Part shown: positions 2,465-63,051 of the stretch, piece by piece | Numbering within the stretch: the first letter of the stretch is position 1 | Layout of the letters: each line of letters opens with the position of its first letter | Assembly: GCA_017461345.1 (NCBI GenBank) | Contig: JAFTYP010000011.1 | Coordinates: 169,678-233,677, forward strand | DNA from: Bacteroidaceae bacterium | GTDB lineage: Bacteria > Bacteroidota > Bacteroidia > Bacteroidales > Bacteroidaceae | Reading direction: 5' to 3' | DNA: 64,000 nt | Made by a program: the position numbers and the translations under genes | The notes under the pieces: model-generated | Databases searched by the model: none | What the model was told of the DNA's origin: nothing | The model's input: only the letters and a program-made list of their open reading frames with translations

Positions 2465-2608
2465 AAGCCCTGCTTTGTGGCTCCGGAAGCCTTGGCAAAA
2501 GCGCAGAATAGGCGTGCCTTGTTCGGAGGAAGGCTGTGGCTTGTCGGACGGGAAGGCGTGGCTTGTTGGCGTAATACGTCTTTCGAGGCACCCGATTTTG
2601 GCAAAAAG
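2465..2608. repeat. 22-bp-period array, GGCGTGCC-type cores
   Basis: Near-palindromic 12-bp cores recur every 22 bp: AAGCCTTGGCAA (2487), TAGGCGTGCCTT (2509), AGGCTGTGGCTT (2531), AAGGCGTGGCTT (2553), then a poor unit at 2575 and TTTTGGCAAAAA (2597). A weaker unit, AAGCCCTGCTTT, sits at 2465. Spacers include GTTCGGAGGA and GTCGGACGGG. The array lies in the 742-bp gap between divergent lplA and rhaB; apart from it and the promoters I see no gene in that gap. The core TAGGCGTGCCTT closely resembles cores in the GGTTAACC arrays elsewhere in the window. Confidence 0.6.
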
Positions 2609-2831
2609 GAAAAATCTTTACACTATTTTGTGTCCCTGCGGAAGCCGTGTTTTGTAAATATCTTTCCTGCAGAAAACCATGTTCCTGCGAACAGGGCGGC
2701 AGGCAGAATGTCGCCGCATCGATTTGCTCTTCGACGTGAATTTCCATAGAATAATATTGCCTGCCTTCCCCGCACATCAGTGGAAATGTTTGCCAAAGCG
2801 GAACGGAAAAGAATGTTTTACAGCACCAGAC

Positions 2832-2863
2832 GATACATCGTATCAAAATAAATGCTAACTTTG
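2832..2863 (+). promoter_or_regulatory. Promoter and possible operator of the rhamnose operon
   Basis: A TAACTTTG -7 box (2856-2863) precedes rhaB by 28 bases. No clear TTTG -33 element is present. Instead a short palindrome, GATAC-ATC-GTATC (2832-2844), sits where a regulator could contact the polymerase. That suggests activator dependence, but this is inference. Confidence 0.55.
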
Positions 2864-2891
2864 TAACAGGAAAGCAAACGAAACACATACT

Positions 2892-4394
2892 ATGGAAAAC
2901 GCCTTTTTTGCGGTTGATTTGGGTGCAACAAGCGGCCGCACCATCATAGGAACACTGCGCAACGGAGAGTTGGAACTGGAGGAACTGACACGCTTCGACA
3001 ACAACCTCGTCGAGACCGGCGGACACTTCTACTGGGACATCTATGCCCTCTACAGCGAAATCGTGCGCGGACTGAAACTCTGTGCACAACGGCAACTGCC
3101 CATCCGGAGCATCGGCATCGACACCTGGGGCGTAGACTTCGTCTGCATAGGCGAAGACAAACAGATTCTGCGCAACCCTCTTGCATACCGCGACCCGCAC
3201 ACCATTCCTGCAATGGACGAATATCTCGGCCAGGTGAACACACGCGAAATGGTTTACGAGAAGACCGGAATACAGTTCCTCAACTTTAATTCCCTCTTCC
3301 AACTCTACGCCATGCAACGTGCCGACAACAGCGCACTGCGCCACGCCGGCAAGGTACTCTTCATGCCCGACGCACTCATCTGGATGCTCACAGGGCACGA
3401 AGTCTGCGAATACACCATAGCCTCCACCTCCGCACTGCTCAATCCCCGAACCGGAGACCTCGACGACGAACTCCTGCAAAGCGTAGGCCTGCACCGCAAT
3501 CAGTTCGGCCCAATGGTCGCCCCCGGCACCATAGTCGCCCCGCTCAGCCAAGAACTGCAGCGACTGACGGGCTTGGGACCCCTGCCCGTCGTAGCCGTAG
3601 CCGGTCACGACACCGGCAGTGCCGTAGCCGCAGTGCCAGCCGCCAACGAACTCTTCGCCTACCTCTCCAGCGGAACATGGAGCCTTATGGGCATAGAAAG
3701 CCCGCAGCCCATCATCAACACACAAAGCCTCGCTTGCAACTTCACCAACGAAGGCGGCATCGAAGGCACAACCCGATTCCTGAAAAACATCTGCGGAATG
3801 TGGCTCTACGAACGCTGCCGCAAGGAATGGAAAGAAGCAGACGCAAACAACCCCAACTCCGCAACCGACCTCGCACACCACACCCTCCAGCAAGCCGCCA
3901 TGCAGGCCGAAGCCTTCCGCAGCATCATCAATCCAGACGATGCCGCCTTCGCCAACCCCGACTCCATGGTGGAAGCCATCCAAAACTACTGCCGGCAAAC
4001 ATCACAACCCGTGCCACAGACACGCGCAGAGATATGCCGATGCATCTTCGACTCACTGGCTCTCCGCTACAGACAAGTATTCGAACTCCTCAAAACCTTT
4101 GCACCATTCCCCATCAATGTCCTGCACATCATCGGCGGAGGCTCGCAAAACCCCCACCTCAACCAGTTCACAGCAAACGCACTCCACATCGAAGTCCAGG
4201 CAGGACCACAAGAGTGTACGGCCATCGGCAACATCATGCTGCAGGCAAAAGCCGCTGGCGTCGTTGCCGACATCTGGCAGATGCGACACATCATACGCAA
4301 CAGTATCAAGCAGGAAACCTATCTTCCCCAAGACGAAACCAACTGGGACGAAGCCTACAAACACTACTGCAAAATAGTACAAGACAAAGCATAA
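2892..4394 (+). CDS. rhaB: Rhamnulokinase
   Basis: Phosphorylates L-rhamnulose to rhamnulose-1-phosphate using ATP, the second step of rhamnose breakdown. The 500-residue protein has the FGGY-kinase layout: the N-terminal phosphate loop VDLGATSGR (residues 8-16), substrate-side DTWGVDF, GHDTGSAVAAVP (H239/D240 region with the catalytic Asp), SSGTWSLMG, and the second nucleotide loop IIGGGSQNP near the C-terminus. It is the first gene of a four-gene operon and is followed by rhaI after 30 bases. Its codons strongly favour A- and C-ending forms, unlike rhaT and rhaD downstream. Confidence 0.96.
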   Translation: MENAFFAVDLGATSGRTIIGTLRNGELELEELTRFDNNLVETGGHFYWDIYALYSEIVRGLKLCAQRQLPIRSIGIDTWGVDFVCIGEDKQILRNPLAYRDPHTIPAMDEYLGQVNTREMVYEKTGIQFLNFNSLFQLYAMQRADNSALRHAGKVLFMPDALIWMLTGHEVCEYTIASTSALLNPRTGDLDDELLQSVGLHRNQFGPMVAPGTIVAPLSQELQRLTGLGPLPVVAVAGHDTGSAVAAVPAANELFAYLSSGTWSLMGIESPQPIINTQSLACNFTNEGGIEGTTRFLKNICGMWLYERCRKEWKEADANNPNSATDLAHHTLQQAAMQAEAFRSIINPDDAAFANPDSMVEAIQNYCRQTSQPVPQTRAEICRCIFDSLALRYRQVFELLKTFAPFPINVLHIIGGGSQNPHLNQFTANALHIEVQAGPQECTAIGNIMLQAKAAGVVADIWQMRHIIRNSIKQETYLPQDETNWDEAYKHYCKIVQDKA

Positions 4395-4424
4395 AACCTA
4401 AAACAACACAACAAAAATAATATT

Positions 4425-62092: not shown

Positions 62093-62098
62093 GAAACA

Positions 62099-62740
62099 AT
62101 GAAAAAAGTCCTTCTCCTTATAGTCCCGTTACTGCTTCTTGCCTCTTGCAAGGACAGCGAGGCAGAAAGCAATGTCCGCCATAATTGGCCGGAACGCAAT
62201 GTCCAATGGTTTGCCGAGGTTTACGATGCCGCCTGTGCAGAAATAGAAACTGCAAAGGCACAGTATGGCAACGATTGGGAGGAGCACTGCGACTGGCGTG
62301 TCTATAAGACGCTGCTGAAGAGTCAGGACGTGCAAGGTCCCCCGACGGACTACATTGTCTGCAAGATAAACGAACGCGGCGATGGCGACTGGAGCCCTGC
62401 CTATACCGATAGCGTCCGCCTCTACTATCGTGGTTGGATTATGGACGACAACTATCCTGCCAGCAAGGACAACATGACCGTCTTCAGCCAGACGTATTAT
62501 GGCGACTTCAATCCGGCAACGGCAGCACCGGTTGCAATGGCAGCGTCGGCACTTGTAGAAGGATTTACCACAGCCATCCAATACATGGTCAAGGGCGATG
62601 ACTGGTCTGTGTATATCCCGAGCGAACTTGCATACGGCGAAAAAGCATCCGATGCCATACCGGCATACAGCACACTACTCTTCCGCATCAGAGTGGAACG
62701 CGTCCACAAGAGTGGCACGGGAATGCCGGGCTGGAGATAA
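62099..62740 (+). CDS. FKBP-type peptidyl-prolyl isomerase lipoprotein (divergent)
   Basis: A 213-residue lipoprotein (MKKVLLLIVPLLLLASCKDS, lipobox ASC) with a C-terminal FKBP fold: VRLYYRGWIMDDNY, ALVEGFTTAIQYMVKGDDWS, YIPSELAYGEKASDAIPAYS. Several active-site aromatics differ from the 15-17 kb FKBPs, so it may act mainly as a chaperone. It starts 6 bases after glyS. Confidence 0.88.
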   Translation: MKKVLLLIVPLLLLASCKDSEAESNVRHNWPERNVQWFAEVYDAACAEIETAKAQYGNDWEEHCDWRVYKTLLKSQDVQGPPTDYIVCKINERGDGDWSPAYTDSVRLYYRGWIMDDNYPASKDNMTVFSQTYYGDFNPATAAPVAMAASALVEGFTTAIQYMVKGDDWSVYIPSELAYGEKASDAIPAYSTLLFRIRVERVHKSGTGMPGWR

Positions 62741-62756
62741 CATAAGCCGAAAGAAT

Positions 62757-62798
62757 AAGAGTGCCCCGACGAAACTTCTGTCTCGCCGGGGCACTCTT
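62757..62798 (+). terminator. Terminator after glyS and FKBP
   Basis: AAGAGTGCCCCG (62757-62768) pairs with CGGGGCACTCTT (62787-62798), followed by TG. Confidence 0.85.
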
Positions 62799-62907
62799 TG
62801 TATCAGGAAGAGTCAGTGTGTTTAACCTCTTGTTGTAGCCTATCGCTCAACATACAGCCCAACAAAAGATGTGCCTGTTCTGCATACAAAAGGGTAGGAG
62901 TCTCAAC

Positions 62908-63051
62908 ACCACTCGTCCATTTCGCCAAGTGGACTGCAGGCGCAAAAAACTGCCCCTCGTCGGCTTCTAAAACTTCTCGCGAGTAATTGCCAAAGTTCTG
63001 CAGAGAAGTTGCCCGACTTCTCTGCAGAAGTTGGCGAAGTTCTCTCGTGTG
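62908..63051. repeat. 22-bp-period array, CTGCAG family (array B2)
   Basis: Seven 12-bp cores every 22 bp: ACCACTCGTCCA (62908), TGGACTGCAGGC (62930), GCCCCTCGTCGG (62952), TTCTCGCGAGTA (62974), TTCTGCAGAGAA (62996), TTCTCTGCAGAA (63018), TTCTCTCGTGTG (63040). Read as reverse complement, six consecutive units match array B1 (23974-24095) in order, spacers included. It lies in the 481-bp gap between the FKBP and BspA-like genes, which otherwise holds only the terminator and promoter. Confidence 0.85.

Follow-up and report, generated by a model that had tools for sequence, protein, structure and literature searches.

Iteron arrays, cooperative operator arrays, and roadblock terminators consist of sites on about two-turn spacing that are bound side by side. 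Intrinsic (Rho-independent) terminators can be bidirectional and have dyad symmetry. In the Bacteroidetes, repetitive extragenic palindromic (REP) elements with a CGTC tag have been reported (PMC3733652, available in part). BrickBuilt, a minisatellite or miniature inverted-repeat transposable element (MITE) of Porphyromonas gingivalis, is made of intergenic 23-nt tandem repeats with predicted stem-loops, some of them flanked by terminators, and the accessible part of the same paper mentions 22-nt tandem repeats in P. gingivalis W83 (PMC4596501). Here, we analyzed a 64-kb stretch of a Bacteroidaceae genome (GenBank assembly GCA_017461345.1, contig JAFTYP010000011.1, positions 169,678 to 233,677; hereafter the window), in which an initial annotation had listed nine intergenic arrays made of a 12-bp near-palindromic core and a 10-bp spacer. 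The repeats are present in exact 22-bp register at all nine places, but one of these, 23930-24139, consists of two arrays of different families, CTGCAG and GGACGCGT.

We propose that the arrays are sites for a lineage-specific DNA-binding factor and act as transcription boundaries at gene ends, where they would replace intrinsic terminators. We give this reading a probability of about 0.45. The proposed sites, usually four per array, stand directly downstream of genes and repeat every 22 bp exactly, or about two turns of the helix. A sequence-specific factor, probably a dimer, would occupy them side by side, and the bound array would form a bidirectional roadblock or boundary, ending transcription as intrinsic terminators do; the A/T runs at some array ends may help. 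We infer termination from the position of the arrays, and we infer the factor and its cooperative binding as well. A broader version is more tentative: a chromosome-wide boundary system in the Bacteroidaceae with a fixed geometry and not a fixed sequence, in which a factor would assemble cooperatively in 22-bp steps on about four gene-end sites at 22-bp pitch, and the specificity of this factor would repeatedly have changed, hundreds of sites turning over together and some places being kept.

The host genome is a metagenome-assembled genome (MAG) of 2.07 Mb in 32 contigs, 73% complete. Among the matches listed for its GroEL, the nearest are a Prevotellaceae MAG (92%) and a MAG labelled Clostridium (91%), with identities of at best 87% to Phocaeicola species and mostly 79-83% to Prevotella species. 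We scanned 460 kb of this genome, i.e., the window and about 397 kb of further sequence, for periods 10 to 40 with a cut-off of at least 31 of 44 matches, and called genes with a crude codon-usage caller made for this analysis. The array counts come from partial genome samples and vary with the scan threshold. Period 22 yielded 43 intergenic and 2 coding arrays, and any other period at most one intergenic array. In the 62.6 kb of intergenic segments we counted 41 arrays of period 22 and, summed over every other period from 12 to 40, 5; 20 Markov-1 shuffles all gave 0 for period 22. The 22-bp pitch and the intergenic placement, both noted in the initial annotation, are confirmed. Across the genome, the main core forms 112 exact GGTTAACC-N14-GGTTAACC pairs (0 for the reversed control). 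In the 460-kb sample, 66 of the 84 GGTTAACC octamers are in or beside called arrays, and 1 of the remaining 18 is in a called gene.

The proposed binding site of this main family spans 14 bp, AAWGGTTAACCWTT. Its 22-bp unit, roughly GGAAAGGTTAACCATTATNGSC, is asymmetric, occurs in either orientation, and is not a perfect palindrome, because core-flanking positions are complementary in 49 of 147 cases when 68 are expected, and positions across the spacer in 33 of 104 (51 expected). On average, the dyad symmetry of the averaged unit is above that of column-shuffled units in all seven sample sets (mean of 4.40 vs 3.50 of 7 over 168 arrays; 3.65 vs 3.11 in the smallest set, of 6). Certain arrays are near-direct, non-palindromic repeats. 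Four slots were found in 24 of 48 GGTTAACC chains of the host and in 19 of 35 chains of its sister species (G012, same genus), using a relaxed core match under which some short chains are false. This search is not very specific, since control octamers gave 6-33 chains of at least two slots vs 43 for GGTTAACC; the controls with most chains share 6 of 8 letters with GGTTAACC. Further families in 22-bp register are CTGCAG, CACGTG/AACACGTT, CATCTACTGCC, GCCACGCC, and ACGCGT. The TTGCC/GGCAA spacer centers said to be common to different families recur in several families of the host, but not in every family of its relatives.

To compare the host with its sister species, we used 18 host arrays, each of which a single local alignment covers from end to end. 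Their cores diverge by 3.6% and the adjacent AA/TT by 3.1%; the value is 16.7% at the flanking W positions and 22% in the 8-bp spacer center. For comparison, intergenic flanks diverge by 14.1% and coding DNA by 6.8%. Inside arrays, indel bases are around five times rarer (8 of 1457) than in flanks (110 of 3799; Fisher p about 1e-8). Core and pitch are kept while the spacer sequences drift, and are under selection. Conserved sites at a fixed pitch with free spacers, the pattern expected of a roadblock array, are thus what the 18 aligned arrays display. Selection for spacing under changing cores had been suggested before; it is supported by these indel counts, by the drift of the spacer centers, and by the recurrence of the 22-bp pitch in the genus with unrelated cores. 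The arrays also stay in place. Among 70 array calls in the host, 35 had both flanks mapped in the sister sample, and 32 of these have a counterpart there; the remaining 3 are apparently false calls of two or three units. In the reverse direction, 32 of 33 arrays have a counterpart, leaving one possible gain or loss. Array positions are largely static between the sisters.

These data also bear on copying in 22-bp steps, which the initial annotation had offered as an explanation. A related view, in which the arrays are functionless minisatellites arising from replication slippage or template switching with a step set by the polymerase, is already disfavored and seems to us very improbable. Spacers of the GGTTAACC family are no more alike within arrays (0.639) than between arrays (0.660). 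Recent tandem duplication therefore fails to account for the GGTTAACC arrays, and copying in 22-bp steps is not supported for this family. Core divergence below that of coding DNA and the bias toward gene ends also argue against it. Other families give it some support: two of their arrays (C1 13548 and C4 13358) differ between sisters by a whole 22-bp unit. In the host array at C4 18089-18235 (L086), compared with contig C1 of the sister, all five units show a GCCAC-to-GGCAC difference and three of them a further one, ..CC to ..TT, so that the change is partly concerted. Spacer change is overdispersed (variance/mean of 1.8 over 53 spacers), which may reflect exchange of units. We rejected inversion of spacers between palindromes as the cause of their fast change: none of the 20 spacers with fewer than 12 of 14 identical positions reaches 12 in reverse complement, and 3 of 53 match better in that orientation.

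The pitch is shared by relatives that have other cores. In 24 genomes of the same genus, GGTTAACC pairs were found only in the sister species (105), and 200 other genomes of a family draw had none. A survey of 121 genomes for pairs of another core, CCGCACGCGG, gave 235, 259, and 59 in G042, G067, and G278, 1-2 in seven others, and none elsewhere. Each lineage has one dominant core, and genomes contain several families. Unbiased scans of relatives revealed intergenic arrays that have period 22 but unrelated cores, most of them near-palindromic. The main core of G067 is not that of the host; a 180-kb sample of this genome has 27 intergenic and 0 coding arrays of period 22, and at most one intergenic array at other periods. 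A 400-kb scan of six genomes, which includes 80 kb of the G067 sample, gave 29 period-22 arrays (12, 7, 4, 3, 2, and 1 per genome) vs 10 intergenic ones of period 21. In 361 kb from 20 same-genus genomes, period 22 gave 7 intergenic and 0 coding arrays, and periods 21 and 14 gave 5 intergenic arrays each. Many period-21 matches are AT-rich or simple repeats. Period 22 is nearly exclusive in array-rich genomes, whereas in the mixed draw it only ranks first among several periods. Little of the signal is left outside the genus. GroEL loci totalling 1.35 Mb had 11 intergenic and 1 coding arrays of period 22, with periods 14 and 18 next at 7 each; 335 kb from other genera of the family had 4 intergenic and 2 coding period-22 arrays (period 33 also gave 4), and 277 kb of other Bacteroidales families had none. 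No array of any period from 12 to 35 was found in a 50-kb control of E. coli.

Arrays of neighboring periods and one viral occurrence were also seen. Period-23 arrays with odd-length palindromic cores (AAGATTACTAATCTT, GACAATACTATTGTC) are present at L154 (G053) 28-137 and L163 (G004) 981-1103, and positions 20001-100000 of contig C1 of G013 (L172-L175) carry three period-21 arrays with TGAAAATNNATTTTCA palindromes plus three of period 22. The 64-kb IMG/VR contig IMGVR_UViG_3300028888_002997 (L344) has a CCGCACGCGG 22-bp array and a T-run at 4865-4986, as in G067, and genes that by reading alone appear to be CHC2-primase-like and ORF6N-like. A phage origin of the GGTTAACC arrays was considered and dropped, as the 20 viral contigs carrying the pattern look unrelated by eye.

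Orthologous gene ends show what stands where an array is absent. We took the 30 best-matching loci each for groEL (30 best of 61 genomes), diaminopimelate dehydrogenase (DAPDH), KorB, and HPPK. Nine of the 30 groEL loci have a yfhO match upstream of groES, and each of the nine has an array between the two genes. Their cores are of five kinds: GGTTAACC (2 loci), AACACGTT (1), ACTSSAGT-like CTCGAG/CTGCAG/CTCCAG (4), CCGCACGCGG (1), and CTCACGAG (1). When other genes are upstream, a few loci have arrays (G042, G060, and G048, with period 23 in G053) and many have none, including G020, which has a codirectional gene upstream. Downstream of DAPDH, KorB, and HPPK, the scan picked up periods 21-23 at 5, 7, and 4 loci, respectively; of these matches, one at DAPDH is 264 bp off and one at KorB is a period-21 repeat that looks coding. 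Below the threshold, HPPK arrays are visible by eye in the host, its sister, and G051. Inspection by eye also revealed array-free loci with a hairpin and a T-run, many at DAPDH and KorB and one at HPPK. Arrays alternate with hairpin terminators at some orthologous gene ends, which the initial annotation could not have noticed because it was made without relatives.

The distribution of the arrays around genes is that expected of terminators, at 3' ends, with a minority between divergent genes (6 in the host, 3 in G067). Densities per intergenic kb in the host are 1.62 between convergent, 0.84 between codirectional, and 0.41 between divergent genes, and G067 has the same order (3.93, 1.28, and 0.79). 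Among 34 arrays between codirectional genes, 28 are closer to the upstream stop (median of 45 bp vs 124 bp). Another canonical terminator is found at 8 of 56 array-bearing 3' ends vs 28 of 79 without an array (pooled p 0.01). T-runs occur at 37% of array ends, and at 61% on convergent sides, vs 0% inside arrays and 13% in random intergenic DNA. Two orientation effects were tried and abandoned. A fixed polarity of units was dropped because the skew of G067 (8 '<>' vs 1 '><' neighbors) was not repeated in the host (7 vs 8) or its sister (5 vs 5). Orientation relative to transcription (14:12 in G067, 33:26 in the host, 31:16 in the sister) is nominally uneven in the last; this was not repeated and we did not use it.

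Such a distribution is also what plain intrinsic terminators would have. Under this alternative, the main rival, which we regard as rather unlikely, neighboring sites would pair in the RNA as hairpins of 12-16 bp with loops of about 8 nt, and U-runs at the ends would release the polymerase in both directions with no special protein. The alternation with hairpins at orthologous ends and the enrichment of T-runs at array ends are in line with it. Four of the five window arrays that we folded have strong RNA z-scores (-6.7, -6.0, -3.7, -3.6), the fifth being at 0.09, and complementarity of array ends is slightly higher within than between arrays (6.57 vs 5.96). Yet in the GGTTAACC family, natural four-unit arrays gain no folding advantage over chimeras assembled with units of other arrays: mean z-scores against chimeras are +0.27 in the host (n=36) and +0.34 in the sister (n=29), and no single array reaches p<0.05. 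Core positions of this family show no compensation or excess covariation. Since chimeras fold as well, cores lack compensation, and flanks pair less than expected, each unit seems to be constrained on its own, like a DNA-binding site, the hairpins presumably being a by-product of near-palindromic sites. Stems would moreover leave unexplained the single core used genome-wide and the kept spacing with free loops, and some arrays are near-direct and non-palindromic. Some arrays, e.g., 15159-15242, could still act as intrinsic terminators.

A third possibility is that the arrays are selfish or domesticated palindromic repeats, similar to REP elements or MITEs, that have spread through genomes and are tolerated chiefly where genes end, each lineage having amplified a family of its own. 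High-copy, lineage-specific families, several per genome, and the gene-end placement are in its favor, as are the neighboring arrays C4 22937 and 26039, which look like mutual copies, and the one array of the sister with no host counterpart. We nonetheless find it improbable, given the static positions, spacers that show no cassette relation, and cores conserved despite spacer drift. Active MITEs are not supported, since recent mobility is not seen, 32 of the 35 mapped host arrays having an array in the sister. REP elements driven by a REP-associated tyrosine transposase (RAYT) were rejected: no Y1/RAYT match (PF01797) was found in the host or its sister, while 12 of 25 genomes searched have one, although the host assembly, at 73% completeness, may miss the gene. 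Inspection of the consensus unit GGAAAGGTTAACCATTATNGSC, which was not systematic, revealed no GTAG/CGTC tag.

Several observations weigh against a boundary factor. The layout is compatible with a protein lying on one DNA face, as initially suggested, but no DNA-binding protein was identified for the arrays, and several core families per genome would require several factors. Many relatives have neither an array nor an evident hairpin at the DAPDH, KorB, and HPPK ends. RNA hairpins may suffice, given that 29 of 56 array-bearing 3' ends score as intrinsic terminators and 4 of 64 divergent controls do. The contrast between convergent and divergent genes rests on small numbers (10 vs 6 arrays, p 0.01; 8 vs 3 in G067, p 0.02), and convergent and codirectional densities do not differ significantly (p 0.07). 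Exclusion of a second terminator has p 0.009 at convergent and 0.06 at codirectional ends, with an array between convergent genes counted for both. Finally, T-runs are not stronger on the downstream side at codirectional genes (p 0.45 in the host and its sister; 0.25 and 0.25 in G067, n=8).

Within the window, the scan at a cut-off lowered to at least 29 of 44 matches listed seven of the nine places (15159, 23957, 27189, 34604, 42557, 51802, and 62968); those at 2465 and 48522 were missed, and both are in phase by eye. The array at 2465-2608, between divergent genes, is degenerate, with near-direct GGCGTGCC/GGCTGTGG/GGCGTGGC cores; it is the weakest member, and its segment 2480-2600 folds as RNA like its shuffles (z 0.09). 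The one at 15159-15242 has four slots, the caps ACATCTACTGCC and GGCAGTAGATGT flanking two GGTTAACC, with a 17-bp closing stem, an A-run and a T-run outside, and an RNA z-score of -6.7. A CTGCAG-family array (23957-24038), between convergent genes and 3' of the KorB-like gene 22856-23845, adjoins the GGACGCGT-family array at 24077-24136. The array at 27205-27290, GGTGTGCC followed by three GGTTAACC-type slots, is directly 3' of the glycosyl hydrolase 43 gene 27291-28328 (minus strand), and the one at 34623-34700, three GGTTAACC slots followed by GGTGTGCC, is 3' of the GTPase Era gene 33597-34505. A listed ATG at 34667 falls within the latter; the refined start of the following gene is 34916. 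Between DAPDH and miaB, 3' of the former, five slots at 42542-42641 comprise the complementary pair AAGGCGTGCCTT/AAGGCACGCCTT, then GCTTAACC, GCTTAACC, and GGTTAACC. The array at 48522-48599, 3' of the HPPK gene 48017-48472, is under the scan threshold and has the slots CATCTACTGCC, GGTTAACC, GCTTAACC, and GGCACACC. A four-slot GGTTAACC array (51814-51891, RNA z -6.0) separates yfhO from groES, and a CTGCAG-family array (62968-63047) is downstream of the BamJ-like FKBP gene 62099-62740.

Other features of the window stand apart from the arrays. An Rfam search identified two tRNAs and nothing else. Between the array and groES, positions 51892-52045 contain a TGTCAG..TGACAG inverted motif and TTTGGCACGCACTTTGTAT, with letters alike in many of the 30 relatives; TTTGGCACGCACTTTGTAT resembles a sigma-54-type promoter. 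Roughly complementary heptamers, AGTTAAG four times (22407-22434) and CTTAACA four times (22824-22852), bracket a small gene (22440-22835), and tandem 12-bp (TACAACCCAAAG) and 6/12/18-bp (ACAGAT..) repeats lie at 10698-10785.

An architecture kept in spacing and place, and not in sequence, would go unseen in ordinary searches for homology. Were a factor that switches specificity to underlie it, bacteria would offer a case in which binding sites turn over in concert by the hundreds, and the arrays would provide a protein-based way of ending transcription in gut bacteria. Even if they are plain hairpin terminators, one core genome-wide and the rigid 22-bp pitch still call for explanation.

In the literature that we searched (including PMC5771137, PMC3733652, and PMC7366714, as far as their text was available), no 22-bp-pitch palindromic array of this kind was found; subscription journals were mostly uncovered, and an earlier description is possible. 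The arrays resemble REP elements and bacterial interspersed mosaic elements (BIMEs) in being short palindromic intergenic repeats of high copy number, in lineage-specific families, with a hypothesized role in termination (PMC3733652, in the part available). Those elements are GTAG-/CGTC-tagged and RAYT-associated, whereas here there is no RAYT match in the host or its sister and the tandem pitch is fixed at 22 bp; moreover, array cores are replaced between species and positions are largely static between sisters. The nearest printed relative by form that we found is BrickBuilt, which shares intergenic tandem repeats, a similar period, and the bacterial order. It differs in having one species-specific sequence in 1 to 22.8 direct copies, with a leader, a tail, and terminal inverted repeats like those of IS5-family elements, and the main text, in the part available, never uses the word stem palindrom- (PMC4596501). 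With intrinsic bidirectional terminators, the arrays share the genomic place, the dyad symmetry, and the A/T runs at some ends, but they differ by a sequence conserved genome-wide, a fixed pitch, and pairing partners that are not co-adapted. From iteron, operator, and roadblock arrays they are set apart by their many chromosomal gene-end loci, cores that switch between lineages, and the lack of a known factor. None of the known kinds compared is defined by a pitch with exchangeable cores.

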